From NCBI RefSeq assembly GCF_006716445.1, contig NZ_VFPA01000002.1, positions 1,116,001-1,180,000 of the forward strand: 64,000 nucleotides of DNA, written 5' to 3'. The notes below the pieces were generated by a model, which searched no databases, was not told the DNA's origin, and worked only from the letters and a program-made list of their open reading frames with translations. Source of the stretch: Pseudonocardia kunmingensis. Its GTDB lineage: Bacteria; Actinomycetota; Actinomycetes; Mycobacteriales; Pseudonocardiaceae. This document shows, one piece after another, positions 4,465-52,073 of the stretch (its first letter is position 1; each line of letters begins with the position of its first letter). Both the position numbers and the translations under genes were made by a program.

Positions 4465-4510
4465 GACGACCGAAAGTTCGGATCATGCTTGCCGGGCGGG
4501 TCCCGGTTTT

Positions 4511-4576: not shown

Positions 4577-4599
4577 GAAAGGGGGCGGCTCGGCGCTGG

Positions 4600-5162: not shown

Positions 5163-5198
5163 GTCCGAGACCGCCTCTCGGTCCGCACCCCCGACCCG

Positions 5199-6629: not shown

Positions 6630-6706
6630 CAGTGTCTCCTGGAGTGGTGGATCCACGGGGTGGTGGACCCGACGGGGTCGGGACGGGGGTGGGGCGGGGG
6701 AGCGGG

Positions 6707-8443: not shown

Positions 8444-8528
8444 CGTCATCATCCTTTTTATTGATAATCAGTGCTGCCGGATGAGACCACGCCCGGGCGG
8501 GCCGGCGCAAGTCCGCCGGCCCGCGGCC

Positions 8529-9848: not shown

Positions 9849-9881
9849 GGGGGTCCTTCTCCGGTCGGGCGGGGGCGGTCG

Positions 9882-12328: not shown

Positions 12329-12346
12329 GTCCACCTCCTGATCGCT

Positions 12347-12367
12347 CCGTTGCGTGGAATGCAACGG
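12347..12367. promoter_or_regulatory. Palindromic operator in front of the M20 operon
   Basis: CCGTTGC-N7-GCAACGG, with seven-base arms and no mismatch. The same GTTGC-N7-GCAAC core recurs at 12435-12451 in front of the divergent IclR gene. Two copies with identical arms and spacer length in one divergent promoter are strong evidence for a shared operator. The IclR protein encoded at 12457 is the obvious ligand (inference). Confidence 0.75.
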
Positions 12368-12434
12368 TGCTTCCTGCGAGCTAGAGGGCTTCTTAGCAGT
12401 GGCATCTACAGGGGTCAACGCGGTCACAGCCGCG

Positions 12435-12451
12435 GTTGCATACACTGCAAC
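12435..12451. promoter_or_regulatory. Second copy of the operator, at the IclR start
   Basis: GTTGC-N7-GCAAC ends five bases before the ATG at 12457. The centre-to-centre distance to the first copy is 86 bp. Its position over the IclR ribosome-binding region suggests autorepression. Confidence 0.72.
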
Positions 12452-12456
12452 GCACC

Positions 12457-14165: not shown

Positions 14166-14186
14166 CCGGCGCCTCGGCACGGCGGC

Positions 14187-15722
14187 TCAGCAGGGCGGGG
14201 TGCCCGGCCGGCAGGGGCTGCCCGACGGCGAGCTGAGCTGCAGGAACTCGGCGGTGCCGTCCGGGAGCACCCCCATGATGGCCACCGCCTTGTCGACCGG
14301 GCTCCCGGTGGCGCTGAGCGAGATCCACCCGCTCGCCCCGGCCACGGCCTTCGGTCCGTGGAGCCGCTTGAACTCCTGGACCACCGCGTCGGGGGTGCTG
14401 ACCGAACCGTCGGGCTGCCGGATGGCGGTGACCGCGGTGAGCACGGCGTCGTAGCCCATGATCGCGTAGCTGTCGTCGAGGCCGTGGTCGGGGAAGTGCG
14501 TCGGGAAGCAGTCCGGGCACCCGCCGGTGAGGTAGTCGGCCGAGCCGGAGGCGAACAGCTCGGGGGAGGCCTGCCACGCGTCCGGGTTGGCGAGTGAGGT
14601 GTAGGCCACGGAGGCGTTCGCCTGCAACCCCTCGCGCAGCCCCGGCTCGCCGCGGGCCACCGCCTCGGCGAAGCTCGCTCCGTCGTCGCCGGTGACGACC
14701 CGCACCGGGTGGTCGAGGCAGGTCCGCTTGGGCAACGCCGCGACGAACGGTGCCAGCTCGGCCGCCCGGCCGGCGAAGAACACGACGTCCGGGCGTTGCT
14801 GGCAGACGTGGACCATGATGTCGTCCATGGCGTTCGCCGCGGAGGGCCCGCCCACGTAGGTTTCGACCGGTTCCACGATCGCGTGGCCCGCGGCGGTGTA
14901 GTGCTCCCGGAACGCGGAGCCGAGGCTCGCCGCGTACCGGTCGTTCTGGTCGCTGTTCTGCACGATCAGCGCTCGGCCGGTGGACGGGCGCAGGTAGGCG
15001 GCCAGTGCGGCGGACTCGTCGGACGTGGTGGGAGCGACCCGGGCGAGTGAGGTGTCGGCGGCGACGGGTGCGGACGTGACCTGCTCGGCGGTCAGGTGGG
15101 ACACGAGCACCGGCACCTCGGCGGCGACGAGCTCGTCGATCACGCCGATCATCGGGTCCAGGGACTTGCCGCTGACGGCGACGGCCATCAGCTTGTGGGT
15201 GGCGAAGTCGGGTCCGGCCATCGCGATCAGATCGTCCACGGGTTCCGGCGCGGGTGCCGCCGAGTCGCCGACGTTGGCCACCAGCAACCGGATCAGCGGG
15301 CGGTCGCCGAGGGTGGTGGTCCGGTTGGCCTGGCGCTGGGCGATGGCGGCCCCCATCACGTCGCCGCTGAGGCGGACCGCGTAGTCGTCCTCCACCCCCG
15401 GCGGTGGGATGGGCACGAGGTAGGCGATGCTGACGATCTCCTTGTCGCCCGGATCCGCGGCGATGCGGGCGTTCTCCTCACCGATGATCCGCAGCGCCTC
15501 CGCCGTCCCGGCCCCGAACACGGGGCCGTGCGAGCCGTCGGTGATCCCGACGCAGCCGCCGCCGTCGCCACGTGCGATGTCGGCTTCGCAGTACCGCCAG
15601 CGGTCGACGATCACCGTCACCGCATAGGTCAGCACCGCGACCAGCACGATCACGATCACGGCGCGCCACGCCCCGCGCAGATCACCCCACCAGCTGCCCA
15701 CCCGCCGGAGAACCCCGGGCAT
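14187..15722 (-). CDS. Membrane-anchored periplasmic-binding-protein-like protein
   Basis: 511 aa. One membrane helix at ~19-38 (WRAVIVIVLVAVLTYAVTVI) has a short cytoplasmic N-tail, so the rest should face outside. The body resembles type 1 periplasmic binding proteins (branched-chain amino-acid type): IVSIAYLVPIPPP, a hinge around LMAVAVSGKSLDPMI, ALIVQNSDQNDRYAASLGSA and VVFFAGRAAELAPFVAAL. No ABC permease or ATPase genes are adjacent. It lies 16 bp downstream of the NTPase-like gene, a pairing I recognise from other actinomycetes, which suggests a sensing or signalling unit rather than a transporter. Six or more cysteines, including CPDCFP, could form extracellular disulfides. Confidence 0.7.
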   Translation of the reverse strand: MPGVLRRVGSWWGDLRGAWRAVIVIVLVAVLTYAVTVIVDRWRYCEADIARGDGGGCVGITDGSHGPVFGAGTAEALRIIGEENARIAADPGDKEIVSIAYLVPIPPPGVEDDYAVRLSGDVMGAAIAQRQANRTTTLGDRPLIRLLVANVGDSAAPAPEPVDDLIAMAGPDFATHKLMAVAVSGKSLDPMIGVIDELVAAEVPVLVSHLTAEQVTSAPVAADTSLARVAPTTSDESAALAAYLRPSTGRALIVQNSDQNDRYAASLGSAFREHYTAAGHAIVEPVETYVGGPSAANAMDDIMVHVCQQRPDVVFFAGRAAELAPFVAALPKRTCLDHPVRVVTGDDGASFAEAVARGEPGLREGLQANASVAYTSLANPDAWQASPELFASGSADYLTGGCPDCFPTHFPDHGLDDSYAIMGYDAVLTAVTAIRQPDGSVSTPDAVVQEFKRLHGPKAVAGASGWISLSATGSPVDKAVAIMGVLPDGTAEFLQLSSPSGSPCRPGTPPC

Positions 15723-34655: not shown

Positions 34656-35867
34656 TCACCAGGTGACGGGCAGGCTGCGCACGCCGCCGGTGAGGTGGTC
34701 GGTGCGGACGTCGAGCGCGTCCAACCCGACCGCGAGGCGCAGCCGGGGCAGCCGCCGGGCGAGGGTGGCGAACACCGCGCGCAGCTCGGTACGGGCGAGG
34801 CTGGCGCCGATGCAGAAGTGCGGCCCGTGGCCGAAGCCGACGTGGCCGCGCTCGGTGCGGTCCGGGTCGAAGGTCTCGGCGTCGGCGAAGACCGCGTCGT
34901 CCCGGTTCGCCGAGTTGATGGACAGGATCAGCGCGTCGCCGCGGCGGATGGTGACACCCGACACCTCGACGTCGGTGTGGGCGTAGCGCAGCAGCCCGAG
35001 ATCGCCCGGGGCGCCCAGCCGCATGATCTCCTCGATCACGGCGTCGATGCGGCCGTCCGGGTCCTCGGCCAGCGCGTCCCACTGCTCGGGGCGGGTCAGC
35101 AGGAACAGCGTGCCCAGGCCGATCCGGTTGACCGTGGTCTCGTGCCCGGCGAACAGCAGGCCGACGCAGAGGCGGACCATCTCCGGGTAGCCGAAGCTCT
35201 CGTCCTCGGCCTGCGCGCGCACCAGGTCGGTGATGACGTCCTCGCCCGGCTCGGCGCGCTTGCCCTCGGCCAGGCCCGCCATGTAGCGGCCGAACTCGGT
35301 GCGGGCCTCGTTCGCGTCCTCACCGGAGAAGGTGGCCATCCGGTCCGACAGCGATCGGAAGAGCTCGCCGTCCGCCTCCGGCATCCCGAGCAGCCGGCAG
35401 ATCACCGCCACCGGCAGCGGGAAGGCCAGCTGCGCGTGCAGGTCGACCCGTCCGTCGGGGGACGCGGCGTGGGCGGCGACCATCTGGTCGACGTAGCCGT
35501 CGACGAGCTCCTGGACGTGCCCGGAGAGCAGGCGCATCCGCTTGGCGGAGAAGGCGGGGGTCAGCAGCCGGCGCATGCGCCGGTGGTCGGACTCCTCGGA
35601 CTCGTAGTCGCCGGTCGGGCCCTCCTGCACCGCGGCCGTGCTGATCCGCGACGCACGCTCGGGCTCGGGGTGCGAGCGGCCGAACCGCGGATCGCCGAGC
35701 AGCTCGCGGACCTCGGCGAACCGGGTCACGAGCCACGCCGGGTCGCCCGCGGGCGTGATCACCGGCGCGATCGGCGCCTCGCGGCGCAGCACCTCGTAGA
35801 ACGGCGCGAGGTCGAGGAGGTTGGGGCGGGTGAACGGGAGCTGCGGGCGTTCGGCGGCGAGGGTCAT
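34656..35867 (-). CDS. Cytochrome P450
   Basis: 403 aa soluble bacterial P450. The I-helix oxygen-activation motif is FAGHETTVNRIG, the K-helix ExxR is present (EIMRLGAP region), and the heme-cysteine loop is FGHGPHFCIGASLARTEL. No membrane anchor. With the ferredoxin downstream it forms a two-gene operon, reading away from the TetR gene. Substrate unknown; nothing nearby is obviously biosynthetic, so detoxification or catabolism of a hydrophobic compound is as likely as natural-product tailoring. Confidence 0.95.
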   Translation of the reverse strand: MTLAAERPQLPFTRPNLLDLAPFYEVLRREAPIAPVITPAGDPAWLVTRFAEVRELLGDPRFGRSHPEPERASRISTAAVQEGPTGDYESEESDHRRMRRLLTPAFSAKRMRLLSGHVQELVDGYVDQMVAAHAASPDGRVDLHAQLAFPLPVAVICRLLGMPEADGELFRSLSDRMATFSGEDANEARTEFGRYMAGLAEGKRAEPGEDVITDLVRAQAEDESFGYPEMVRLCVGLLFAGHETTVNRIGLGTLFLLTRPEQWDALAEDPDGRIDAVIEEIMRLGAPGDLGLLRYAHTDVEVSGVTIRRGDALILSINSANRDDAVFADAETFDPDRTERGHVGFGHGPHFCIGASLARTELRAVFATLARRLPRLRLAVGLDALDVRTDHLTGGVRSLPVTW

Positions 35868-35911
35868 CGATCGTCCTCCTGGGGGTCGGATGACCCCACG
35901 GTACGATTAAT

Positions 35912-35926
35912 TGGCAGTAGCTGCCA
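35912..35926. promoter_or_regulatory. TetR-type operator palindrome
   Basis: TGGCAG-TAG-CTGCCA is a perfect palindrome with six-base arms, placed between the P450 start (35867) and the TetR start (35946), about 20 bp from the latter. Its size and place fit a TetR-family operator that represses both divergent genes. Confidence 0.65.
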
Positions 35927-35945
35927 CAAAGTCTGACCGATTAGG

Positions 35946-36605
35946 GTGCCTGCCGTGGCGCAGCAGGGCGGTACGCGACGAGGGCGTCCGCCGCTCGGTG
36001 AGCAGGGGCGCCGCCGGCAGCGCCTGGAGATCTCCCGGGAGGCGGTGCGGCTGTTCCGCGTGCACGGCGTGGGCGGCACGTCCGGGGTGCGGATCGCGGA
36101 GGTCGCGGGCGTGTCCGAACGGACCCTGTGGCGGCTGTTCCGCACCAAGGAGAGCTGCGTGGAGCCGCTGCTCACCGAGGCGCTCGACGGGTTCTGCGCG
36201 GTGCTGCGCTCCTGGCCGATCGGCGTCGAGCTCGCCGAGCACCTGCGGGTCGCCTACACGTTCGTCCCGTCGCGACCGGAGGTCGACACGGACACCGACG
36301 CGGTGCTCGCGGTGGTGCGGATGACCCGCGACGTCCCGGCCCTGCGCGCGGTCTGGTTGGTGCTGCAGGAACGCGCCGAACCGACCCTGGCCGAGGTGCT
36401 CGCCCCGCGGGCGGGCCTGCCCGTGGACGCACCCGAGGTGCGCGTGCTCGCCGCGACGGTGAACGCGGCGCTGCGCGTGGTCACCGACGACTTCGCGCAC
36501 GCGGCGGCGGACGGCGTGACCCCGTCCGACGTCGACGGGCACCGGCAGCGGCTGGCCGAGACGCTGCGCGCGGCGACCCGCGTGCTCGCGCCGGATGAGG
36601 CGTAG
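35946..36605 (+). CDS. TetR-family transcriptional regulator
   Basis: 219 aa from GTG 35946; GTG 35955 is also possible. The N-terminal helix-turn-helix reads RRQRLEISREAVRLFRVHGV and VRIAEVAGVSERTLWRLFRT. The C-terminal ~150 residues are a variable helical ligand domain. A Gly/Arg-rich leader (QQGGTRRGRPPLGEQGRRR) is typical for TetR proteins. It is divergent from the P450-ferredoxin operon with a perfect palindrome in between, so it presumably represses the P450 until a ligand binds. Confidence 0.92.
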   Translation: MPAVAQQGGTRRGRPPLGEQGRRRQRLEISREAVRLFRVHGVGGTSGVRIAEVAGVSERTLWRLFRTKESCVEPLLTEALDGFCAVLRSWPIGVELAEHLRVAYTFVPSRPEVDTDTDAVLAVVRMTRDVPALRAVWLVLQERAEPTLAEVLAPRAGLPVDAPEVRVLAATVNAALRVVTDDFAHAAADGVTPSDVDGHRQRLAETLRAATRVLAPDEA

Positions 36606-36633
36606 ATCGCGCGGAATGTCCGGAAGGGGAGGT

Positions 36634-36661
36634 TTGCACCGCCGGCCCGAGCCGCTACAGT
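36634..36661 (+). promoter_or_regulatory. Promoter for the riboswitch-TerC transcript
   Basis: TTGCAC (36634-36639) and TACAGT (36656-36661) are separated by 16 bases. Transcription would start near 36668, immediately in front of the riboswitch consensus. Confidence 0.5.
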
Positions 36662-36670
36662 GGCGGCGCG

Positions 36671-36806
36671 AAGGGGAGTAGTCCTCCGCGGCGGTGCCGT
36701 CAGTACGGGTCAGGACGAGCTGGCCCCGGTGCCGTCGGTCCGGATCATCAGCCCATCAGGGGCTCCGGGCGGACGAGACTTTCAGCACTCGATGCTGTGC
36801 TGAAAG
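36671..36806 (+). ncRNA. yybP-ykoY (Mn2+) riboswitch leader
   Basis: The leader carries both conserved ends of the yybP-ykoY aptamer: AAGGGGAGTAG at 36671 and GGACGAGACTTTC ending at 36783. GAAGG (36670-36674) can pair with CTTTC (36779-36783) as helix P1. The same CTTTC also starts a perfect 10-bp hairpin, CTTTCAGCAC (36779-36788) with GTGCTGAAAG (36797-36806), which buries most of the AAAGGG ribosome site (36803-36808) of the TerC gene. The two structures exclude each other, giving a simple translational switch: metal-bound P1 frees the ribosome site. The aptamer class is established; the switching model is inferred from the pairing. Confidence 0.85.
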
Positions 36807-36814
36807 GGATCGTC

Positions 36815-37840
36815 ATGAACGTGCCCATCTGGGTCTGGCTTGCCACCATCGCCCTGGTCATCGGGATGATCGTGTTCGACTTCGTCGGGCACGTCCGCAA
36901 GCCGCACGAACCGACGCTGCGCGAGTCGACGGTGTGGTCGGTCGGCTACATCGCGTTCGCCCTGGTGTTCGGCGTGGGCGTCGGCGTGTTCTCCGGCTGG
37001 ACCTACGGCGGCGAGTACGTCGCCGGCTGGCTCACCGAGAAGGCGCTGTCGGTCGACAACCTCTTCGTCTTCCTGCTGATCATGACCAGCTTCGCGGTGC
37101 CGAAGATCTACCAGCAGAAGGTCCTGCTGATCGGCATCGCGATGGCGATCGTGATGCGCGGCATCTTCATCGCGGTCGGTGCCGTCGTCATCGAGCAGTT
37201 CTCCTGGGTCTTCTACCTGTTCGGCGCCGTGCTGTTCGTGCTGGCCTACAAGCAGATCACCGAGGCCGTGTCCGACGAGGACGAGCACGGCGACCAGGGC
37301 GACAGCCGGCTCATCCGGACGGTGCGCCGGATCATCCCCACCAGCTCCGAGTACGACGGCGACAAGCTGCGCACCCGCGTCGACGGGCGGGCGATGTTCA
37401 CCCCGATGTTCCTGGTGATCGTCGCGATCGGGCTGACCGACCTGCTGTTCGCGTTCGACTCCATCCCGGCGATCTTCGGGCTCACGCAGGAGCCGTACCT
37501 GGTGTTCACGGCCAACGCGTTCGCGCTCCTCGGCCTGCGCCAGCTGTACTTCCTCATCGGCGGGCTGCTGGAGCGGCTGATCTACCTCGCGCACGGGCTG
37601 TCGGTCATCCTCGCGTTCATCGGCGTGAAGCTCGTCCTGCACGCGCTGCACGAGAACAACCTGCCGTTCCTCAACGGCGGCCAGCCGGTGCCGGTCTGGA
37701 CCATCCCGACGTGGCTGTCGCTGCTGGTGATCTCGGGCACGATCGCGGTGGCCGCGGTGGCCAGCCTGATCACCTCCCGCCGCCGCGCCGCCGCGGCCGA
37801 CGCGCCTGCGGCGGAGCTCCCGGCGCCCGCGCGCGACTGA
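36815..37840 (+). CDS. TerC-family membrane protein (probable Mn2+ exporter)
   Basis: 341 aa from ATG 36815; the upstream in-frame GTG 36797 lies in the regulatory hairpin. About 8-9 membrane helices. Acidic residues typical of TerC occur in the membrane: EKALSVDNLFVFLLIM and GLTDLLFAFDSIPAIFG, each with an Asp flanked by hydrophobic stretches. TerC/Alx-type proteins act in manganese efflux or metalation of exported proteins. The Mn2+ riboswitch directly upstream supports manganese export as the physiological role. Monocistronic: the next gene starts 117 bp later with its own -10-like sequence. Confidence 0.93.
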   Translation: MNVPIWVWLATIALVIGMIVFDFVGHVRKPHEPTLRESTVWSVGYIAFALVFGVGVGVFSGWTYGGEYVAGWLTEKALSVDNLFVFLLIMTSFAVPKIYQQKVLLIGIAMAIVMRGIFIAVGAVVIEQFSWVFYLFGAVLFVLAYKQITEAVSDEDEHGDQGDSRLIRTVRRIIPTSSEYDGDKLRTRVDGRAMFTPMFLVIVAIGLTDLLFAFDSIPAIFGLTQEPYLVFTANAFALLGLRQLYFLIGGLLERLIYLAHGLSVILAFIGVKLVLHALHENNLPFLNGGQPVPVWTIPTWLSLLVISGTIAVAAVASLITSRRRAAAADAPAAELPAPARD

Positions 37841-39280
<1,440 letters not shown>

Positions 39281-42166: not shown

Positions 42167-44767
42167 GTGGAGCTCGCGGAGCGGGACGAGCTGCTGGGGG
42201 AGTTGGCCGAGCACCTGGACGGTGCCGCAGCCGGCCGCGGGCGGCTGGTGCTGTTGTGTGGGGAGGCGGGAATCGGCAAGACCGCGGTCGTGCACCGGTT
42301 CGCACAGCTGGTCGGTCCCCGTGCGCGGATCTTGACCGGGGCCTGCGACCCGTTGAGCACGCCGAGCCCGCTGGGGCCGCTGGCCGACTGCGCCGCCGGC
42401 CTCGGACCGTCGCTACGCCGCGCCCTGGACGTGGCCTTGGACGGCGTCGGCGGGTCCGGCCCCGTATTCCGCGAACTGCTCACCGAACTCGGGGCGAAGG
42501 ACCGACCGACCGTCCTGGTCGTCGAGGACGTGCACTGGGCCGACGCGGCGACATTGGATCTGTTGCGCTTCCTGGCACGCCGGATCGAGAGCACGACGAC
42601 GCTGGTGCTGACCACGTACCGGGACGACGAGGTCTCCCCCGAGCACCCGCTCGCGGTGGTTCTGGGCGACCTCGCGGGGAGTGCCGCAACCTGCCGTCAC
42701 GAGGTGCAGCCGCTGAGCCGGGCGGCGGTGGCCGCAATGGCGGCCGAGCCCGGCGTCGACAGGGCTGTCGACGCCGAGACCCTGTACCAGCGCACCCGGG
42801 GTAACCCGTTCTTCGTGACCGAGGTGCTCGCCGCACCCGCGGGATCGGTCCCGCTGTCGGTCCGCGATGCGGTGCTCGGCCGGATGGCGCGATGCGCACC
42901 GGGGGTCCGGGCCGTGGTGGAGGCTGTGGCGGTGATCGGCTCGCCTGCCCCGGTGCAGCTGGTGGACTCGGTGCTCGCGGACGTTCAGGGAGTGCTGCGC
43001 GACGGGCTCGCCCGCGGCCTGCTGCAGGCGCGCGGGCACATCGTCGAATTCCGGCACGAGCTCGCCCGCGCTGCGGTGCTCGACGCCATTCCCGCCTATC
43101 GGCGGGCCGAGCTGCATCGCCGGGTGCTCGCCCAGCTGCGTGCCGATGGCTCAGCGGACGACCTGCCCCGCCTCGCGCACCATGCCGAGCAGGCGGGCGA
43201 CGCGCGCGCCGTGCTGGAGTTCGCACCCCGCGCCGGGGACAGCGCTGCGGCGGTCGGGGCACACCGGGAAGCGGCGGCGCAGTACGGACGCGCCCTGCGA
43301 CACGCGGTGGGCGCCGCACCAGACCACCGCGCGGGGCTGCTGGAGCGGCGTGCCTACTCGCTCTACCTGACCGGTGTGGCGGGCGACGCGGTCGCCGCGT
43401 GGCGGGACGCCGCCGAACTCCGCGCACGCGCGGGCGACCGGCTGCGCGAGGGCCACGACCTGTGCTGGGCGTCCTACATCCTATGGCTGCTCGGTAGCAA
43501 CGCCGAGGCCCGTGAGCTGGGCCTGCGGGCGGTGCGGGTACTCGAGGTCGTGCCGCCCGGTGTGGAGCGTGCCCTGGCATACCTGAACCTGGCCGAGCAG
43601 GCGAGCTTCGACTACGACCCGCGGACCGCGATCGAGTACGCGCAGCGCGCGGCCCGGCTGGGCGAGGAACTCGAGCACCTCGTCGTCACGGTGCGCGCGC
43701 GGTTCGCGGTCGCGATCGCCCGCGTGTTCCGGTGCGACGAGGGCTGGGACGAGCTCGACGAGATCTGGAACACCGTGGCCACGCACGGCACGGTGGAACT
43801 CGCCGGCATGTTCCCCGTGATGTCGGCCGCCGCGGTGGTGCATCGGCACTTCGCCCGCGCGCGGAGGTTCGACGAACACGCGGTGGCCTACTGCCGGGAG
43901 CGGGACCTCGACATGTTCCTGGGTCACCTGGGTGGGGCACGGGCCTTCGCCCTGCTGTTCCAGGACCGTTGGGAGGAGGCCACCCAGGAGGCTGCCTCGG
44001 TACTGCGATACACCGCGCTACCCCCGCTCAGCCGGTTGTTCCCGCTGGTCACCCTCGGGTTGGTCCGCGCGAGACGCGGTGACCCGGACAGCTGGCCGCT
44101 GCTCGAGGAAGCGGCCGGGTCGGGCTCATGGGAGTACATGGTCCGGCTCGGCGCGGTGTACCAGGCGCGCGCCGAGGCGCACTGGCTGGCCGGCGACGAC
44201 GAGGCGGCGCTCGCCGAGGTGCGTCGCGGCCTCGCAGCCGTCACCGAGGACAGCGACCCGTGGATGGTCGGTGCGTTGGCCCGCTGGGCCCGGCTCGCGG
44301 GCGGAGACGCACCGGCCGTGCCGGCCGCCGGACCGTTCGCCCTCGAGCTGGCCGGCGACTGGCGGGAGGCCGCTCGGGCGTGGGAGGCGCTCGGCTGCCG
44401 CTACGACGCCGCGCTGGCCCGCCTGGCCGGCGACGCGGCCGCCCTGGGCCAGGCGCTGGAAGCCTTCGAGTCGCTGGGAGCACGACCCGCCGCCGCCCGC
44501 GCCCGGCAGCGGCTGCGGCACCTGGGGGTGCGCTACGGCCACCGCGGTCCGCGGGCGGCGACCCGGGCCAACCCGCATGGGCTGACCACCCGGCAGCTGG
44601 AGATCCTCCAACTGGTGGCCGAGGGGCTGACCGGGCCGGAGATCGCCGCGCGCCTGCACCTGTCGCCCAAGACCGTCGGCCACCACGTTGCCGCCACGCT
44701 CGCCACGCTCGGCGTGCACAGCCGCGCGGACGCAGTGCGCACCGTGTTCGGCGGCAGTGATCATTGA
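42167..44767 (+). CDS. LuxR-family regulator with AAA/NB-ARC-like ATPase (LAL type)
   Basis: 866 aa. Walker A GEAGIGKTAVVHRFAQL near residues 28-44, Walker B VLVVEDVHWADAATLDLLRF, sensor-like LVLTTYRDDEV, a long helical TPR-like middle, and a C-terminal LuxR helix-turn-helix (LTTRQLEILQLVAEGLTGPE then IAARLHLSPKTVGHHVAATL). Large ATP-binding LuxR regulators control secondary metabolism or carbon use in actinomycetes. Upstream 42006-42166 holds no gene. Targets are unknown; the hydrolase before it and the lectin region after it are candidates by position only. Confidence 0.93.
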   Translation: MELAERDELLGELAEHLDGAAAGRGRLVLLCGEAGIGKTAVVHRFAQLVGPRARILTGACDPLSTPSPLGPLADCAAGLGPSLRRALDVALDGVGGSGPVFRELLTELGAKDRPTVLVVEDVHWADAATLDLLRFLARRIESTTTLVLTTYRDDEVSPEHPLAVVLGDLAGSAATCRHEVQPLSRAAVAAMAAEPGVDRAVDAETLYQRTRGNPFFVTEVLAAPAGSVPLSVRDAVLGRMARCAPGVRAVVEAVAVIGSPAPVQLVDSVLADVQGVLRDGLARGLLQARGHIVEFRHELARAAVLDAIPAYRRAELHRRVLAQLRADGSADDLPRLAHHAEQAGDARAVLEFAPRAGDSAAAVGAHREAAAQYGRALRHAVGAAPDHRAGLLERRAYSLYLTGVAGDAVAAWRDAAELRARAGDRLREGHDLCWASYILWLLGSNAEARELGLRAVRVLEVVPPGVERALAYLNLAEQASFDYDPRTAIEYAQRAARLGEELEHLVVTVRARFAVAIARVFRCDEGWDELDEIWNTVATHGTVELAGMFPVMSAAAVVHRHFARARRFDEHAVAYCRERDLDMFLGHLGGARAFALLFQDRWEEATQEAASVLRYTALPPLSRLFPLVTLGLVRARRGDPDSWPLLEEAAGSGSWEYMVRLGAVYQARAEAHWLAGDDEAALAEVRRGLAAVTEDSDPWMVGALARWARLAGGDAPAVPAAGPFALELAGDWREAARAWEALGCRYDAALARLAGDAAALGQALEAFESLGARPAAARARQRLRHLGVRYGHRGPRAATRANPHGLTTRQLEILQLVAEGLTGPEIAARLHLSPKTVGHHVAATLATLGVHSRADAVRTVFGGSDH

Positions 44768-44911
44768 GCGGGAGCGTCATAGGACAACCGGCCGATCACG
44801 CCGCGTAATTGGGGTCCGAGCCCACTGAAAGTAGGGTGTCGCGCCCGATGAGTCCGCACCAGAGCGCTTCCAACGTCTCCACACGACATTCGCGGGAGCG
44901 GGGAGGGCCCA

Positions 44912-45259
44912 GTGCCTCGGTACTCGATCGAACGCGCGCTCCCGGAGGACCTCGGCGCCTTCCTCGTCGAGCGTCCGGTGTCGGAGATCGTCCTGGCCAA
45001 CACCGAGCTCGGGGTGGCCTGGCTGTGCTGCTTTGTGAACTCCGGAGACAAGCGCCTCTTCTGCATGTACGAGCCGGCGAACCCGGAGGCGATCCGCAAG
45101 GCCGGCCGCCGGACGGGACTGCCGATCGAGGTGATCCACCGGGTCACCGTCCTCGAGCCGCACGCGTTCGCCGACCGGGGCGCATGGCGCGACCCGACGA
45201 CGGCACAGGAAGAGCCACCGACGGCCGCCGCCGCGGCGGGATGGTCCGGTGCCCACTGA
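44912..45259 (+). CDS. DUF4242 (SCO4226-like) small ferredoxin-fold protein
   Basis: 115 aa from GTG 44912 (VPRYSIERALPEDLGAFL). The pattern LGVAWLCCFVNSGDKRLFCM, YEPANPEAIRKAGRRTGLPI and VIHRVTVLEP matches DUF4242, typified by the nickel-binding SCO4226 of Streptomyces. A Pro/Ala-rich tail (~90-115) is extra. Two adjacent cysteines (CC) and one further Cys in the core are noteworthy for a metal-binding family. It precedes the lectin gene by 55 bp and may be cotranscribed with it. Confidence 0.78.
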   Translation: MPRYSIERALPEDLGAFLVERPVSEIVLANTELGVAWLCCFVNSGDKRLFCMYEPANPEAIRKAGRRTGLPIEVIHRVTVLEPHAFADRGAWRDPTTAQEEPPTAAAAAGWSGAH

Positions 45260-45314
45260 ACTCTTCCGGCAGAGGGATATCAGCGAGCGGATTGAACCTG
45301 AGAGAGGCAATGAC

Positions 45315-46532
45315 ATGGCAATAACGCACGCCACGGTAACCATCAACAAGATCCACGTGATCGACTCGAGCGTGAACACCACGGCTGAGCCTGGATCGTC
45401 TGCGGAATGGTACATGAAGTTCATCGTCAACGGCCAGCAGCAGACATGGGGTCACGACGGGGTCCGGGACAATACTGACTACGCACTCAACCTCACCTTT
45501 CCGAATGTTTCACTCGCTCCGAACGGCACGATCACGATCGCGGCTAGTGGGTACGAACATGACGACACTTCGGCAAATGACGTACTTCCCAGGCTCGAGA
45601 AGACTGTTCATCCGGCGCAAGACTTCGAACTAGGCGCCACGGAATGGGCGTTCAGTCCGGATTCGCCGGAGGGCAGTTACAAGATCGAATACAGTATCAA
45701 GGCCGCGCAACAGCAGCAGCCGCTCGGCGTCGGTCGAGCTGTCGGGTTCGCCGTCTACGGGATTAAGCCCAATGGTGACCTGCATTGGTATCGCCACGAC
45801 GGGTGGAAGGAGGGGACGGCGCATTGGACTGCTGGTGCGGGTGGGGTCAGGATCAGTGGCGGCTGGGGCATCTACGCCAACGTGTTCAGTGGCGGCGACG
45901 GGGTGATCTACGGGATCAAGCCGAATGGTGACCTGCATTGGTATCGCCACGACGGGTGGAAGGAGGGGACGGCGCATTGGACTGCTGGTGCGGGTGGGGT
46001 CAGGATCAGTGGCGGCTGGGGCATCTACGCCAACGTGTTCAGTGGCGGCGACGGGGTGATCTACGGGATCAAGCCGAATGGTGACCTGCATTGGTATCGC
46101 CACGACGGGTGGAAGGAGGGGACGGCGCATTGGACTGCTGGTGCGGGTGGGGTCAGGATCAGTGGCGGCTGGGGCATCTACGCCAACGTGTTCAGTGGCG
46201 GCGACGGGGTGATCTACGGGATCAAGCCGAATGGTGACCTGCATTGGTATCGCCACGACGGGTGGAAGGAGGGGACGGCGCATTGGACTGCTGGTGCGGG
46301 TGGGGTCAGGATCAGCGGCGGCTGGGGCATCTACGCCAACGTGTTCAGTGGCGGCGACGGGGTGATCTACGGGATCAAGCCGAATGGTGACCTGCATTGG
46401 TATCGCCACGACGGGTGGAAGCAGGGGACGGCGCATTGGACTGCCGGTGCGGGTGGGGTCAGGATCAGCGGCGGCTGGGACATCTACGCAGGTGTCTTCG
46501 GCGGCGATACATACATCGAGCCTGCCGGGTGA
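45315..46532 (+). CDS. Tachylectin-like five-bladed beta-propeller lectin
   Basis: 405 aa from ATG 45315 (GAGAGG eight bases upstream). Residues ~1-130 form an all-beta N-terminal domain of lower GC (MAITHATVTINKIHVIDSSV and following), ending in a QQQQ linker. Residues ~145-399 are five repeats of 51 aa with the pattern YGIKPNGDLHWYRHDGWKEG, TAHWTAGAGGVRISGGWGIY and ANVFSGGD. Five Trp/His-rich blades are the architecture of tachylectin-2, which binds GlcNAc/GalNAc. Units 2-4 are identical in protein; units 1 and 5 carry boundary variants. There is no signal peptide, so export would need another route. Confidence 0.82.
   Translation: MAITHATVTINKIHVIDSSVNTTAEPGSSAEWYMKFIVNGQQQTWGHDGVRDNTDYALNLTFPNVSLAPNGTITIAASGYEHDDTSANDVLPRLEKTVHPAQDFELGATEWAFSPDSPEGSYKIEYSIKAAQQQQPLGVGRAVGFAVYGIKPNGDLHWYRHDGWKEGTAHWTAGAGGVRISGGWGIYANVFSGGDGVIYGIKPNGDLHWYRHDGWKEGTAHWTAGAGGVRISGGWGIYANVFSGGDGVIYGIKPNGDLHWYRHDGWKEGTAHWTAGAGGVRISGGWGIYANVFSGGDGVIYGIKPNGDLHWYRHDGWKEGTAHWTAGAGGVRISGGWGIYANVFSGGDGVIYGIKPNGDLHWYRHDGWKQGTAHWTAGAGGVRISGGWDIYAGVFGGDTYIEPAG
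45747..46511 (+). repeat. Five tandem 153-bp repeats encoding propeller blades
   Basis: The unit is exactly 153 bp (51 codons), with starts at 45747, 45900, 46053, 46206 and 46359. Units 2, 3 and 4 are virtually identical at the DNA level; unit 1 differs mainly in its first ~35 bases and unit 5 in its last ~50. Identity at synonymous positions indicates recent amplification or gene conversion. Short-read assemblies may miscount such units. Confidence 0.95.
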
Positions 46533-47226
46533 ACTCGTCGCCCTGGTGGGCCTCGTTGCGCCCATCTGACCACGTCGGGATTTTCGGTGCACCGTGCTCG
46601 GTGGCCGCCCCCGCCGACCGGGTGGCACTGCGCTCGGCGCGGTCACGGGCCGCGCTCCTGGTCGTCGGGTGCGGCGAGGTGGCGCTCATGCTCGCCCAGC
46701 CGGACGGGTCCGCGGTCGTCGTCGCCCCGCCTGCCGCGCGCCGGCGGCGATCCCGCCGGTGCCGGAGGCCGTGCCGCCCGCGGACACCCCGTCCGGTGAC
46801 GCCGGGTCGGGTGGGACCGGCGGGCCGCCGCCCGACGAGGGGTCGGAGGGGGCCTCGAACGGCGGCGGCTCGCCGGGGCCGGCGGTGAGCGGGCGGAGAA
46901 GGCTCCGTATCGCATTGCCGCCGTCGCCTCCCTGTGGGCCCTCACGAACCGGGAGCTCCTCTGGGTTCTGATCGCCGTTGCCGTGCTGACCGAGACCACC
47001 AGTGCGGTGGTACGTCACGGCCGTGGTGAGGCGACAGGGACGGCGGTCACGAGTTCGCGTCCACCCGGTCGAGATTGCGGCGGTCCAGCCGATAGGCGAG
47101 GGCGATCGAGACGAGGGCCGCGGCGACGAAGCACAGGAACGATCGGGCTCTGCGGCATCGTCATCGGGAGATCGCAACCGGCACGATCTACTGCTGTCGT
47201 GCCGGGGCGGGAACGACGCGCGGGCG
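46533..47226. other. Coding debris between lectin and Rieske oxygenase genes
   Basis: No intact gene is visible in these 694 bases. Plus-strand pieces in different frames look protein-like in series: a valine-rich piece (ALLVVGCGEVALMLAQPDGS, ~46650-46730), a Pro/Gly/Ser-rich linker (~46745-46890), then a hydrophobic piece (RIAAVASLWALTNRELLWVL, ~46905-46990). They could derive from one membrane protein with two frameshifts. On the minus strand a short hydrophobic run (FVAAALVSIALAYRLDRRNL, ~47060-47130) has no start codon. I treat the whole as degraded sequence. Confidence 0.35.
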
Positions 47227-48537
47227 TCACGGGTCCGGGAACATCCGGGTCATCGTGGCCTCGTCGCCCCCTGGGACCCGGTCGATGCCGAGCAGCCTGT
47301 CGATGACCATGTTCTGGAAGCGGTGCAGCGGCTCCTCGAACCGGAAGCACATGCGCCCGCCGCGGTACGCCGGGTTCTCGATGCCCTCCTGGACGCGCTC
47401 GACGATCTCGAGGTCCTGGCGGTTGACGAGGTCCCAGAACCGCTCGAGCTGGTCGAGGCCCGCTTCCGCGCCCGGGTCGTCCAGGGACTCGGGGTGGGTG
47501 AGCAGGACCGCGGTCTCCACCGTGCGGGTCGCGCTCACCGGGCGGTTGAGCAGCACGAAGGCGTGGTTGGGCAGCACGACGAGCGCGGTGCTGGGGAAGA
47601 GCCAGACGAACCGCCCGCTCTCGGCGTCCTGGGCGCCGAGCGAGCTCAGCGGCCGCAGGCCGTCCCAGCCGCCGGCGTCGGTGTTGCGCGACACCGGTGT
47701 CGTGCACATGCCCGTGTACATGCCCGGCCCCTGCCAGCGGTAGTGGTCGGAGAACCTGGAGACCTTGTTCAGCTCCGGGTGGACCCAGGGCAGGTGGTAG
47801 TACTCCATGAAGTTCTCGCCGACGAGCTTGTAGTTCGCGGCGACGTCGTAGGTGCGGCGGCGCTGCGGCACCCACTGCTCGAGCCGGTGGTCGGCGAAGC
47901 GCCGGGGGAGGTCGCCGAGCTGGGTTGCCAGCGGGGCGGGGTCGGCGGCGAGGTTGACGAACAGGAAGAAGCCCCAGGTGTCGACGGCCACCGGGAGCAG
48001 GCCGTAGTCGGCGCGGTCGAAGCCCTTCGCCACCGAGGTGTCGAAGACGGGCTCCTCGCCCGCCGGGACGTCGGAGCCTTCGAACAGCGGTGTGCCGAGG
48101 CAGCGGCCGTCGGTGTCGTAGGTCCAGCTGTGGTACGGGCAGCGGATGTGCCCGCGGCGGCCCACCTCGCGGACGTCCGCGTCGAGCAGCCGCGTGGCGC
48201 GGTGGCGGCAGACGTTGTGGAACGCCCGCAGCCGGCCCTCGCGGTTGCGGGTGACGATGACCGAGCGGCCCGCGACCTCGACCACCACGCACGCGCCGGG
48301 ACGGTCGACGTCACCGGCGAACCCGACCGCGACCCACCCGGTGGTGAAGACCCGCTCCTGCTCGAGGGCGAAGAACTCGGGGGAGCAGTAGGCGTCGGGG
48401 ATCAGGGTCGAGGCCAGCTCCACCGGCAGCCGGGTGTGGCGGTAGGTGCTCTCCTCGGTGAACCGCGCCGGGTCGACCGGGCGCGCCGGCAGCGCGGCAT
48501 GGGGATCGACGGGCCGGGTCGTCGCGTCGGTCGTCAT
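47227..48537 (-). CDS. Rieske non-heme iron oxygenase, alpha subunit
   Basis: 436 aa. The Rieske [2Fe-2S] ligands are Cys110-X-His112 (NVCRHRATRL) and Cys133-XX-His136 (IRCPYHSWTYD). The catalytic domain has the mononuclear-iron motif NYKLVGENFMEYYHLPWVHP. Length and the VENF/ENFMEYYH pattern fit the quaternary-amine group (glycine betaine or choline-type monooxygenases) better than aromatic dioxygenases with beta subunits; none is adjacent. It lies 21 bp downstream of the sarcosine oxidase-like gene, so the pair probably removes N-methyl groups stepwise. A reductase partner must be elsewhere. Confidence 0.88.
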   Translation of the reverse strand: MTTDATTRPVDPHAALPARPVDPARFTEESTYRHTRLPVELASTLIPDAYCSPEFFALEQERVFTTGWVAVGFAGDVDRPGACVVVEVAGRSVIVTRNREGRLRAFHNVCRHRATRLLDADVREVGRRGHIRCPYHSWTYDTDGRCLGTPLFEGSDVPAGEEPVFDTSVAKGFDRADYGLLPVAVDTWGFFLFVNLAADPAPLATQLGDLPRRFADHRLEQWVPQRRRTYDVAANYKLVGENFMEYYHLPWVHPELNKVSRFSDHYRWQGPGMYTGMCTTPVSRNTDAGGWDGLRPLSSLGAQDAESGRFVWLFPSTALVVLPNHAFVLLNRPVSATRTVETAVLLTHPESLDDPGAEAGLDQLERFWDLVNRQDLEIVERVQEGIENPAYRGGRMCFRFEEPLHRFQNMVIDRLLGIDRVPGGDEATMTRMFPDP

Positions 48538-48558
48538 CGCGGGGGTCTCCCTTCGTGT

Positions 48559-49743
48559 TCAGACGTGGAAGCTGCGCGGGAACGACGGGTCGGTCAGCGC
48601 CGGGCGGGTGATCGAGAAGGCGTCGATCGGGTGGCACGGCTCCCGGTCGAGGGCGAGGTCAGCGAGCAGCCGCCCGATGAGCGCGGCGAACTTGAACGCG
48701 TGCCCGGCGCCGATCGCGACGGCGATCTGGGGGTGCTCGGGCAGGGTGTCGAGCACGAAGTCCTGGTCCGGGGGCACGGTGTACAGGCAGGTCTTCGAGT
48801 ACAGCTCGGGCCCGCCGAAGCGGGGGATGTGCCGGGCGACGAACTCGGCGTAGCGCTCGCGGCGCACGGGGTCGGGGTCGAAGCTGCGGGTGTCGGCCGT
48901 GGTCTCGGGCCCGCCCATGTGCTGGCCGAGCTTCGTGGCGACCTCGCCGTAGACCGGGAACCCGTAGAAGTTGTGGCGGCCGTGCCACATGAACACCGGG
49001 AACCGGGCGGGGGAGAACTCCGCGAGGTGCGGGGTGGCGTAGTAGGTGACCTGCTCCTGCAGCACGGTCAGGGGCAGCGCCACCCCCGTCTCGGCGAGCA
49101 GTTGGTTGGTCCAGGCGTCACAGGCCACGACGACGCGGTCGGCGCGCAGCGTGCCCCCGTTGGTGACGACGGCGACGCCCGCGCCGTCGGGGCGTACCGC
49201 GTGGACGCGGGTGTGGGGCCGCACCTCGGCGCCGTGGGCCCTGGCCAGCGCGACGTGCACCGCGTTCGCCCGCGCGGCGTCGACGATGCCGGACTCGGGC
49301 TGGTAGAGGGCCTGCTCGCCGCCACCCGGCCGGAACTGGGGCCACCGGTCGACGAGGTCGTCGGCGTCGAGGAGCTCGTAGTCCACCCCGAAGCGGTCGA
49401 ACATCGCGGTGTAGCCCTCGATGTTGCGGGTGCCCGTGGCGGTGTTCTGCCGGGCCGGCCGGTCCTCGACGACCAGGCCTCCGGTGCGGGTGACGATCTG
49501 CTGCCCGGACTCGGCCTCGACCTCGTGCCACGCCGCGTAGGCGGGCGCGGCCAGCGCGGCGTAGGGCGCCTGGTGCTGCGCGAGCCTGATGATCCGGGAG
49601 TGGTCCTGGGACGCGCCGCGGTGGTGGCCGAGCTCGAACTGCTCGATCCCCAGGACGCCCGCGCCGAGCTCCGCGGCGAGCCGGTGCAGCGCTGCGGAAC
49701 CCAGCCCGCCGAGACCGACGACGATCGCACGATGACCCGTCAT
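48559..49743 (-). CDS. Monomeric sarcosine oxidase / N-methyl amino-acid oxidase
   Basis: 394 aa from ATG 49743. FAD-binding fold at the N-terminus: IVVGLGGLGSAALHRLA. MSOX-type signatures include HHRGASQDHSRIIRLAQH, the oxygen-activating Lys271 (EVATKLGQHMGG) and Cys319 (SKTCLYTVPPDQDFVLDTLP), which corresponds to the covalent 8-alpha-S-cysteinyl-FAD site. It oxidises N-methyl amino acids to the amine, formaldehyde and H2O2. It is the first gene of a two-gene operon with the Rieske oxygenase, divergent from a LysR gene whose operator-like site lies 60 bp upstream. Confidence 0.92.
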   Translation of the reverse strand: MTGHRAIVVGLGGLGSAALHRLAAELGAGVLGIEQFELGHHRGASQDHSRIIRLAQHQAPYAALAAPAYAAWHEVEAESGQQIVTRTGGLVVEDRPARQNTATGTRNIEGYTAMFDRFGVDYELLDADDLVDRWPQFRPGGGEQALYQPESGIVDAARANAVHVALARAHGAEVRPHTRVHAVRPDGAGVAVVTNGGTLRADRVVVACDAWTNQLLAETGVALPLTVLQEQVTYYATPHLAEFSPARFPVFMWHGRHNFYGFPVYGEVATKLGQHMGGPETTADTRSFDPDPVRRERYAEFVARHIPRFGGPELYSKTCLYTVPPDQDFVLDTLPEHPQIAVAIGAGHAFKFAALIGRLLADLALDREPCHPIDAFSITRPALTDPSFPRSFHV

Positions 49744-49802
49744 GACGGGAGTGTCGGTGCCGCCGACCGTCCGCGTCCATCGAAGAATCGAACCCAGGAT
49801 CT

Positions 49803-49817
49803 TGTACGTTCCATACA
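49803..49817. promoter_or_regulatory. LysR-type box between sarcosine oxidase and LysR genes
   Basis: TGTACG-TTC-CATACA: interrupted dyad with 5 of 6 arm positions matching, containing a T-N11-A pattern. It touches the ATG of the LysR gene at 49817 and lies 60 bp from the divergent oxidase start. This placement is usual for autoregulating LysR activators. Confidence 0.5.
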
Positions 49818-50800
49818 TGATTGACCGGCGGCTGCGGGTGCTCCAGGCGATCGCGCGGCACGGCACGGTGACCGCCGCCGCGGAGGTGTGCCGGCTGACG
49901 CCGTCCGCGGCCTCGCACCAGATCCAGGCACTGGCCCGCGAGCTCGGCGTCGCCCTGCTCGAACCGGTCGGGCGGGGGGTGCGGCTCACGCCCGCCGCGC
50001 GGACCCTGCTCGCCCACGGCAAGTCCCTGACCGCGGCGTGGGAGCGCGCCCAGGCGGATCTGGCCGCGCACCGCGCCGGCGACGTGGGTGGCGTGCTGCG
50101 CTTCTGCGGGTTCTCCAGCGCCGCCGCGGCAGTGGTCCCGCGGGCGCTGGAGCACCTGCGCCGCGAGCACCCCGCGCTGCGCGTGCAGCTGCGGGAGGGC
50201 GAGCCTGCCCGCGCGTTCGACCTGCTGGCCTCCGACGACGCCGACATCGCGGTGGTCGTCGCGACACCGGACATCCCACCCGTGACCGACCCCGCGTTCG
50301 ACCAGGACGCCCTCTACGACGAGCCGCTGGACGTCCTGGTGGGGCCCGATCACCCGCTGGTCGGTGCGGCCGACGTCGCCCTGAGCGACCTCGCGGGCGA
50401 CCCCTGGATCTGCAGCAACCCGGGGCGGGCCTACCACCAGCTGGTGACGCTGGCCTGTGCCAGCGCCGGGTTCGCTCCCGACATCGCCCACTACGCCGAC
50501 GAGTGGGACACCGGCGCCGCCCTGGTCGCCCGCGGCTTCGGCGTGGCCATGGTCCCGCGCCTGGCCGACCTGCCCACCCGGCACGACACGCGCCGGATCC
50601 CGATCAGCACGCCGCCGGTGCCGATCCGGCACGTGATCACCGCCGTCCGTGCGGGGTCGCAGGGCAGGCCCACCATCGCCGCCGGGCTCGAGGCCCTGCG
50701 CCACGTCACCGCCGCGGCCCCGCTGGGCCTCGACCCCGAGGGCTCGGAGGCGCTCAGCTCCCGAGACCGGGGAGCGCAGGACGATCCAGCCACGCGGTGA
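49817..50800 (+). CDS. LysR-family transcriptional regulator
   Basis: 327 aa from ATG 49817 (MIDRRLRVLQAIARHGTVTA); an upstream frame to 49742 is open but crosses the operator. The N-terminal helix-turn-helix is AAAEVCRLTPSAASHQIQAL and the remainder is the periplasmic-binding-like effector domain. The last ~45 residues overlap the 3' end of the convergent M1 peptidase gene by 47 bp. It is divergent from the sarcosine oxidase/Rieske operon and probably activates it in response to the N-methylated substrate. Confidence 0.92.
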   Translation: MIDRRLRVLQAIARHGTVTAAAEVCRLTPSAASHQIQALARELGVALLEPVGRGVRLTPAARTLLAHGKSLTAAWERAQADLAAHRAGDVGGVLRFCGFSSAAAAVVPRALEHLRREHPALRVQLREGEPARAFDLLASDDADIAVVVATPDIPPVTDPAFDQDALYDEPLDVLVGPDHPLVGAADVALSDLAGDPWICSNPGRAYHQLVTLACASAGFAPDIAHYADEWDTGAALVARGFGVAMVPRLADLPTRHDTRRIPISTPPVPIRHVITAVRAGSQGRPTIAAGLEALRHVTAAAPLGLDPEGSEALSSRDRGAQDDPATR

Positions 50801-52073
50801 AGAACGTGGAGAGGTCCGCGTCGGCATGTCGCCCGGCCAGCTCGACGAACTGCGCGGTGGTCACCGTCGCGTGCCGGTGCCGCGCCGTCCAGTCCCGCAG
50901 CAGCGCGAAGAACGGCTCGTCGCCGATCCGGCCGCGCAACGCGTGCAGCACCAGCGCCCCGCGCTTGTAGACCCGCTCGTCGAACATCCGCGCGGGCCCC
51001 GGGTCGGCGAGCACGAGGTCGGCAGGCTGCGCCGCCACCCGCGCGTGCCACTCCCGGGCGTGCGCCGCGGCGGCGCGGCCGCCCGCCGCCTCCGACCACA
51101 GCCACTCCGCGTACGTCGCGAAGCCTTCGTTGAGCCAGATGTGGCGCCAGTCGGCGATCGTGAGGCTGTTGCCGAACCACTGGTGCGCGAGCTCGTGCAC
51201 GACGAGCCGCTCGTGGGTGCGCCGCCCGTCGAGGTGGTTCGCACCGAAGATCGACATGCCCTGGGCCTCGATCGGGTCCTCCAGCTCGTCGTCGGTGACG
51301 ACGAGCTGGTAGTCGGCGAACGGGTAGGGCCCGAAGAAGCGCGCGAGCGTCGTCATGATCGCGGGGTGTCGGCCGAGGTCGCGCGCGGCGACCTTGCGCA
51401 GCCGGGCGGGGACCAGCGCCACCTGCGGCACCGGGTCCTCGCTGAGCACGATCTCCTCGTAGCGCCCGATCTGGACGCTGACGAGGTACGACGGTGTGGG
51501 CTCCGTCCGCTCGAACACCCACGTGCGCGCGCCGGCCGAGCGGCGCCGCGCGGAGAGCACACCGGTGGCCGCGACCGTGTAGGGCGCGGCGGTGGTCACC
51601 GCGATCCGGTAGGTGGCCTTGTCCGAGGGGTGGTCGTTGCACGGGAACCATGACGGCGCGCCGACGGGCTGGCTCGCGACGAGCGCGCCGTCGGCCAGCT
51701 CGTCCCAGCCGACGTCGCCCCACCGGCTGGAGACCGGGGTGGGGTTGCCGGTGTAGCGCACCTCGACGGTGAACCGGCCCGCGACCGGGCGGTCCGGGGT
51801 GACGTGCAGCTTGCCGTCGCGATGGCGGAACTTCGCAGCCCGGCCGTCGACGAGGACCCGCGGCACGCGGAACGTCGCGAGGTCGAGGCTGAACCGGGAC
51901 AGCGGCGCGTCGGCGACGGCGGTGAGCACCGCCCGCCCGGTGAGCCGGTTGGCGGCGAGCCTGTAGTCGATCTCCAGATCGTAGTGCTCGACCCGGTACC
52001 CGCCGTTGCCGTGGGTGGGGAGGTAGGGGTCGTCCGACCGGGCCGCGCCGGCCGCCGGCCCGCTCAGCCCCAC
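50754..52073 (-). CDS. M1-family metallopeptidase (short aminopeptidase N-like)
   Basis: 439 aa from GTG 52073. Zinc site: His293-Glu294-X-X-His297 in VVHELAHQWFGNSLT and Glu316 in LNEGFATYAEWLW, with the expected 18-residue gap. The substrate-side GAMEN motif is replaced by EAQGMSIFGANH, as in many short actinobacterial M1 members. It lacks the C-terminal ARM domain of full-length aminopeptidase N. No signal peptide is evident. It overlaps the end of the Pls/PosA-type gene by 10 bp, so the two are translationally coupled. Confidence 0.92.
   Translation of the reverse strand: MGLSGPAAGAARSDDPYLPTHGNGGYRVEHYDLEIDYRLAANRLTGRAVLTAVADAPLSRFSLDLATFRVPRVLVDGRAAKFRHRDGKLHVTPDRPVAGRFTVEVRYTGNPTPVSSRWGDVGWDELADGALVASQPVGAPSWFPCNDHPSDKATYRIAVTTAAPYTVAATGVLSARRRSAGARTWVFERTEPTPSYLVSVQIGRYEEIVLSEDPVPQVALVPARLRKVAARDLGRHPAIMTTLARFFGPYPFADYQLVVTDDELEDPIEAQGMSIFGANHLDGRRTHERLVVHELAHQWFGNSLTIADWRHIWLNEGFATYAEWLWSEAAGGRAAAAHAREWHARVAAQPADLVLADPGPARMFDERVYKRGALVLHALRGRIGDEPFFALLRDWTARHRHATVTTAQFVELAGRHADADLSTFFTAWLDRPALPGLGS

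Follow-up and report, generated by a model that had tools for sequence, protein, structure and literature searches.

A putative tachylectin-type lectin gene of Pseudonocardia kunmingensis with near-identical propeller blades behind an unusual N-terminal domain

The blades of tachylectin-2 are 47 residues long. Tachylectin-2 has five blades (PMC6805158), and in the tachylectins as described in PMC8023676, the GW of loop DA' and the W of loop CD form the sugar pocket, where the loop-CD W also anchors a short helix. Recently amplified, highly repetitive tachylectin-like propellers, defined by a median blade identity above 60%, are reported in Actinobacteria and Cnidaria (Pereira and Lupas 2022, PMC9218822), and three papers appear to describe concerted evolution among the propeller repeats of fungal genes for non-self recognition (PMC1805685, PMC2873952, and PMC12222747). 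Near-identical tachylectin-like propellers in Actinobacteria are already known, and the gene presented here is a clean new example with an unusual extra domain. Its blades have a median identity of 97.8% over their first 46 residues (nucleotide median 97.5%), and compared to the propellers described in PMC9218822, the array is fused to an N-terminal domain and has distinct outer edges. Among the open-licence matches listed, we found no paper on the architecture of this N-terminal domain fused to a tachylectin propeller. The UmbA lectins described in PMC13274773 also come from actinobacteria and have lectin domains that are five-bladed propellers, as predicted for the lectin presented here, but they carry a trypsin-like domain and act in particles, whereas the present lectin has no trypsin-like domain.

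The window is a stretch of 64,000 nt from Pseudonocardia kunmingensis (contig NZ_VFPA01000002.1, positions 1,116,001 to 1,180,000, forward strand), and the features of the lectin locus within it are collected in Table 1. The lectin ORF starts with ATG, and a longer form is possible from GTG at 45249. Tandem Repeats Finder detects a sole array here, at 45754-46489, whose 4.8 copies of period 153 match at 98% and contain no indels (score 1423). The preliminary description had given five 51-residue blades encoded by 153-bp units; all five blades are indeed 153 nt (51 codons) long, and blade 5 is followed by four extra residues and the stop codon. The same description had counted three blades as practically identical in DNA; the near-identity holds, but it extends over four blades (1-4) instead of three. 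The GC content is 56.9% in the N-terminal domain and 64.2% in the propeller, compared to 73.2% in the window and 71.0 and 74.5% in the two upstream genes. These two genes match AAA_16 plus GerE and PF14026, in agreement with the LuxR-AAA regulator and the DUF4242 gene noted before; PF14026 now has the name SCO4226-like and was formerly DUF4242.

Table 1. Features of the lectin locus. Positions are those of the window, and differences between blades are given in nucleotides per 153-nt unit.
Feature	Position	Strand	Remarks
AAA_16/LuxR-type regulator (AAA_16 + GerE), 866 aa	42167..44767	+	PF13191, 82 bits; PF00196, 53.7 bits
SCO4226-like protein, 115 aa	44912..45259	+	PF14026, 40.5 bits (cut-off 28.5); ends 55 nt before the lectin ORF
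Candidate ribosome-binding site GAGAGAGG	45300..45307	+	Putative, read directly from the DNA; 7 nt 5' of the ATG
Lectin ORF, 405 aa; N-terminal beta domain and five-bladed tachylectin-type propeller (predicted)	45315..46532	+	Pfam
N-terminal domain (residues 1-140); weak prediction of an all-beta, C2-like sandwich	45315..45734	+	AlphaFold, Foldseek, VIA-align
Blade 1	45753..45905	+	3 from blade 2, all within the first 18 nt; 4 from blade 4; 24 from blade 5
Blade 2	45906..46058	+	Identical to blade 3 (0)
Blade 3	46059..46211	+	Identical to blade 2 (0)
Blade 4	46212..46364	+	1 from blades 2 and 3, at unit position 105; 20 from blade 5
Blade 5	46365..46517	+	21 from blade 2, of which 18 lie at unit position 116 or beyond (last 38 nt)
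Near-uniform array core	45771..46421	+	Starts at nt 19 of blade 1 and ends at nt 57 of blade 5; single variable nt, in blade 4
79-nt stretch	46918..46996	+	91% identical to one other site in the genome, downstream of a LuxR/SCO4226-like pair

The lectin scores 141.2 bits with the Pfam family Tachylectin (PF14517), whose cut-off is 29.8 (E 5.8e-41), and a profile made from nine propellers finds 1TL2 (tachylectin-2) in the PDB at E 1.2e-8, with designed and other propellers alongside. From an input of seven sequences, the best of five AlphaFold models shows five four-strand repeats, and all five GGW sites carry a short helical turn. This model supports the propeller predicted in the preliminary description in that VIA-align, a re-examination of Foldseek's best 1000 chains, superimposes it on 225 of the 235 residues of 1TL2 (Z 16.0, 4.1 A) and on 5c2m (Z 16.2), with the next row at Z 12.6, but its confidence is low, with a pLDDT of only 60 (37-45 for the other four models). 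A plain, full-length Foldseek search leads to propellers of a generic kind, at query TM-scores of 0.22-0.30, and 1TL2 is not among the 50 rows listed. A five-bladed tachylectin-type ring is very likely, and we infer its closure from the low-confidence model. The GGW motif is present in all five blades and aligns with the GGW of 1TL2. An AHW motif, also present in all five blades, aligns with the NW of 1TL2, which we assign to the loop-CD W, and it is probably the second pocket motif. Family and motifs together suggest sugar binding. Tachylectin-2 (1TL2) and the symmetrical 5c2m belong to the same Pfam family and have five blades and the GGW motif, as in the window lectin, but they are eukaryotic and only 15-16% identical to the window propeller in the structural alignment, and their chains of 235-237 residues leave no space for an N-terminal domain.

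As stated in the preliminary description, no signal peptide or hydrophobic N-terminal stretch is visible in residues 1-40 of the lectin, where the highest 15-residue Kyte-Doolittle mean is 0.94. In this it differs from the bacterial tachylectin-like sequences that PMC8023676 places in secreted proteins, although it may leave the cell by another route. Both points would suit a cytoplasmic protein-binding propeller that is not a lectin at all; we consider this quite unlikely, because GGW and AHW are retained in 5/5 blades and the match to the Tachylectin family is specific.

Residues 1-140 are modelled by AlphaFold as eight beta strands (pLDDT 60). The top rows of a Foldseek search with this domain are mostly C2 domains, all weak (best E 2e-3; TM-scores of 0.27-0.45 by domain length), and VIA-align gives a best Z of only 5.8 with other folds mixed among the rows; a C2 fold is our best guess from these models. 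No Pfam family, C2 included, matches residues 1-140 above its cut-off, and the domain profile has no sequence match in the PDB up to E 10. GDSL-lipase-like scraps appear in Pfam below the cut-off (E 0.0066) and in the PDB with the uncharacterised protein 4nrd (E 0.029). Besides two Streptomyces relatives, the domain has one further match, in a congener (G039, 34% over 80 residues), whose protein (L012, 976-1833, minus strand) joins the relative of the N-terminal domain to a different C-terminal part with no Pfam match above cut-off. In 396 sampled genomes of the phylum, the domain alignment matches only the window's own genome (1/396 at E 0.001). Because the domain is missing in the Nocardia relatives and stands on another C-terminus in the congener, it appears to be a separate module. 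Compared to Streptomyces, it has a dN of 0.13 and a dS of 1.6-2.3, values by which it is under purifying selection, and it looks like a rare module that is older than the blade copying. The preliminary description had proposed a lower-GC beta domain of different origin. The lower GC and the behaviour as a separate module stand, but the GC contrast is no proof of a recent fusion, and a recent fusion as its source was rejected, since the Streptomyces relatives show much the same contrast (58% and 64-66% compared to 70.5% for the whole locus).

The nearest proteins are two from Streptomyces with the N-terminal domain (77-79% identity) and four from Nocardia without it. Of 25 candidate stretches in genome contigs, seven loci (L002-L008) encode relatives, and the comparison uses six of them, with the partly masked L008 left out. 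The gene of Streptomyces sp. CB02980 (L002) is complete and encodes the N-terminal domain and four blades, and that of S. aureus NRRL B-2808 (L003) encodes the N-terminal domain and ends within blade 4 at the end of the contig. Both resemble the window gene in an N-terminal domain that is 80-81% identical, in the propeller behind it, in showing no signal peptide by eye, and in a GC content (58-66%) below that of their locus. However, their blades are less alike (median nucleotide identity of 94-95%), and the gene adjoins a peptidase M11-like gene, with no LuxR/SCO4226 pair in the flank ORF lists. The peptidase M11-like gene is divergent from the lectin gene (2787-4772 in L002 and 3592-5436 in L003, both on the minus strand; Pfam identifies that of L002, and that of L003 is 87.5% identical), and its product has an N-terminal repeat of its own, with three copies in L002 and two in L003 when counted by eye. 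The Nocardia relatives (L004-L007, of which L004 is Nocardia lijiangensis) have five blades of 51-52 residues and are 70-75% identical to the window propeller. Their blades are nearer to those of the window in DNA than the Streptomyces blades are, but unlike the window blades, they are mostly diverged (median of 75-80% over 46 aa), and their position marks persist across species, save for blade 4 of L004.

An assembly artefact, with a true array that is shorter or longer, is very improbable. The copy number does depend on read length, as blades 2 and 3 are identical, L003 breaks off within blade 4 at a contig end, and the same doubt applies to the four blades of L002. However, the window gene lies within a contig of a 10-contig, 9.1-Mb assembly, the edge variants and the single variant of blade 4 fix the order of the blades, and five blades are also found in Nocardia and reported for tachylectin-2 (PMC6805158).

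In a tree of 27 blades (five from the window; L006 and the incomplete unit of L003 excluded), the five window blades form one clade with a local support of 0.99, and this clade groups in DNA with the Nocardia blades (0.95), not with the Streptomyces blades. Five nucleotide states are common to all five window blades and occur in none of the 27 full-length blades of the six relatives L002-L007. The dS is 0-0.11 among window blades 1-4 and 0.19-0.32 between these and blade 5, compared to 0.58 between blade 2 and blade 3 of L004 and 1.3 between blade 5 and blade 3 of L003; from blade 2 to each of three Streptomyces blades, it is 1.8-2.2. The contrast between the dS within blades 1-4 and the dS of 0.58-2.2 to the relatives clearly indicates that the near-identity of the blades is recent and younger than the gene. 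Since the relatives have four or five blades, and two of these relatives also carry the N-terminal domain, the fusion and the multi-blade ring look old, and the fusion and probably the complete ring would have come before the near-identity. The preliminary description had likened the protein to a lectin caught while it evolves through blade amplification; the recent near-identity agrees with this, but the propeller is probably not a new one, as the relatives already have four to five blades. The N-terminal domain and the blades may have separate histories, because the blades group with Nocardia, where the domain is missing, and the domain is shared with Streptomyces.

We therefore weigh two accounts of how the blades became alike. 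The account that we prefer, and hold to have somewhat better than an even chance, is that of an accessory, probably horizontally acquired tachylectin-type lectin, tethered and multivalent, in which an old ring has recently homogenised inner blades. The ancestor would already have carried the N-terminal domain and several blades, the inner blades would recently have been made alike in the window lineage via unequal crossing-over or gene conversion, and the outer edges of blade 1 (the N-terminal junction) and blade 5 (the C-terminal end) would have stayed distinct; the tethering, the recombination route and its direction are the conjectural parts of this account. The recent event was probably a homogenisation or re-amplification of the inner blades, and we lean somewhat towards homogenisation in a ring that already existed, rather than a new ring from one blade. 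Amplification of internal blades is reported for VCBS propellers (PMC9218822). A case at constant blade number is provided by L004 (ORF 5995-6798), where 1 of 138 core positions separates blade 3 from blade 4. The core of its blade 4 has 16-18 differences to blade 3 and 24-25 to blade 4 of the other Nocardia, while the blade 4 loop (positions 145, 146, and 152) retains blade-4 states and the blade number is still five. The core of blade 4 thus looks overwritten by blade 3, which would be a conversion-like tract in a five-bladed propeller.

In the other account, which follows the general proposal for highly repetitive propellers, the propeller was newly amplified from one blade in the window lineage, and those of Streptomyces and Nocardia arose through amplifications of their own. 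The five private nucleotide states and the single clade of the window blades favour it, PMC9218822 explains the same pattern in the Nostoc WRAP propellers by independent amplification, with a first strand that is likewise unlike the amplified region, and the ambiguous direction of change within the array is compatible with it. Nevertheless, Streptomyces joins the same N-terminal domain to a multi-blade propeller, and the edges of blades 1 and 5 are distinct, which by our reasoning a 153-nt duplication that starts mid-unit would produce only with a second blade already there. In addition, L004 shows overwriting at a constant blade number. We regard this account as unlikely, though it deserves serious consideration.

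The direction of blade copying is ambiguous. Within the first 138 nt, blade 5 differs from blade 2 at 11 sites, and the commonest Streptomyces state agrees with blade 5 at seven of them, with blade 2 at three and with neither at one, whereas the Nocardia reference agrees with blade 5 at three, with blade 2 at six and with neither at two. Because the two references disagree, the blades with the old states cannot be named, and the proposal of an ancestral blade 5 with derived blades 1-4, which holds by Streptomyces (7/11) and fails by Nocardia (3/11), was rejected. At the edge of blade 1, one of three sites looks old, by the Streptomyces reference only. Strong concerted evolution within the Streptomyces pair was also dropped, as their blades 1-3 show only one fixed difference, along with two shared position marks. 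The gene lends itself to the question of whether a near-identical propeller is a ring newly grown from a single blade or an older ring homogenised by recombination: its N-terminal domain and distinct edges are fixed reference points, and the four-blade and diverged five-blade relatives permit a direct test.

The genomic setting suggests an accessory gene. Full-length matches of the lectin are absent from the other 61 genomes of the genus examined; among all 62, three have a distant propeller only (35-36%) and one has the N-terminal domain only. In the family sample, 67 of 297 genomes match at E 1e-3, including the window's own, and the best other match is 48% identical. Four of 394 genomes match at 1e-15 in the class sample, and three of 392 at 1e-20 in the sample of Streptomyces, the genus of L002, where the only close match is that of L002 itself. 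The best-matching congener (G036, 92% DNA identity, among 60) aligns with the window at 35669-39243 and 47041-51053, and nothing between these two segments matches at that place. Elsewhere in G036, there are matches to parts of the window at 39.4-42.0 kb, and the segment 42.0-47.0 kb, which holds the lectin gene and the two genes upstream of it, has no match in G036 at E 1e-30. Because there is no full-length match in the genus, the GC is low, the nearest proteins are in Streptomyces and Nocardia, and the locus is missing in G036, we conclude from sequence comparison that the lectin gene is accessory, and it was probably acquired horizontally. Between the points that match window 47178 and 47222, G036 has about 8.9 kb (L066, G036:C4:12000-31000, 6304-15167). 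Window 47041-47178 (138 nt) matches the end of a 496-codon ORF in G036, of which the window may hold a remnant.

A second LuxR/SCO4226-like pair is present on contig C1 of the window's genome (L065, G000:C1:634000-646000, about 3635-9463), with 79% identity over window 44168-45165, and its SCO4226-like copy has one stop within the match. At that site, a DUF6777 gene occupies the place of the lectin gene after the pair, and the 79-nt stretch lies downstream of the DUF6777 gene. In the simplest reading of the two copies, 45166-46917, including the low-GC part, would have been placed into a copy of the LuxR/SCO4226-like module. Phage origin was considered and rejected: the search of 50,697 phage records gave no match at E 1e-5, the viral contigs gave 4 and 130 pattern stretches, none of them relatives, and the PHROG matches are scraps of 20-24 residues, none of which passes alone. 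Plasmid cargo was rejected as well. Four plasmid records match the lectin, the best with 33.5% identity over residues 132-382, and none matches the N-terminal domain; six records match window 26000-50900 and cover at most 6% of it. Rfam reports no RNA element up to E 1 in 44700-47300, the folding of 46905-47010 is no better than that of shuffled sequences (z 0.44), and the searches for promoter and terminator signals in 44700-46800 give 0 and 1 site, which is the chance level.

With regard to function, our best guess is a lectin that has several equal pockets for a repetitive glycan and is tethered through its N-terminal domain; the LuxR-type neighbour may or may not regulate it. Five 51-residue blades would close a single ring, in which as many as five equivalent pockets could take up sugar, the ring would bind repetitive glycans through avidity, the N-terminal beta-sandwich would tether the lectin to the membrane or a partner, and the lectin would be made without a classical export signal. 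The wall polymers of competitors are plausible targets, because the beta-propeller lectin domains of UmbA are described as binding such polymers (PMC13274773). Fungal or self glycans and a toxin-like role, which the preliminary description had named, are further candidates. The analogy can be taken further, to a targeting lectin for inter-bacterial competition like the five-bladed UmbA lectin domains of umbrella toxin particles. PMC13274773 reports that the UmbA-type proteins include 12 families of five-bladed propellers and that UmbA5 of S. coelicolor has a lectin domain with five blades. In addition, two genomes of the window's bacterial family (L031 and L032) encode proteins with trypsin plus Tachylectin, an architecture like that of the UmbA lectins. 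However, no trypsin family is among the six Pfam families listed up to E 1 for the lectin, no signal peptide is visible on it, and the five neighbours tested with Pfam are the LuxR regulator, the SCO4226-like protein, a Rieske oxygenase, a LysR regulator and a beta-lactamase-fold protein, so that we consider an UmbA-like role improbable. A role as a defence gene was rejected, as the lectin has no PADLOC match at E 0.01.

A broader and speculative proposal, to which we give only a small chance, is that filamentous actinobacteria share a mobile lectin family that lacks export signals, with a C2-like tether, concerted blades and a blade number that varies by strain (four in one Streptomyces, five here), which would tune the avidity for a wall glycan of the cell itself or its neighbours. 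If true, it would be a bacterial counterpart to the homogenised propeller repeats of the fungal non-self recognition genes. The lectin is also an almost symmetrical five-site candidate for glycan-array and folding work. Another genome of the same family (L013, G212:C1:9714631-9717657) shows three consecutive tachylectin-like matches in about 3 kb, with a SpoIID domain before one of the propellers.
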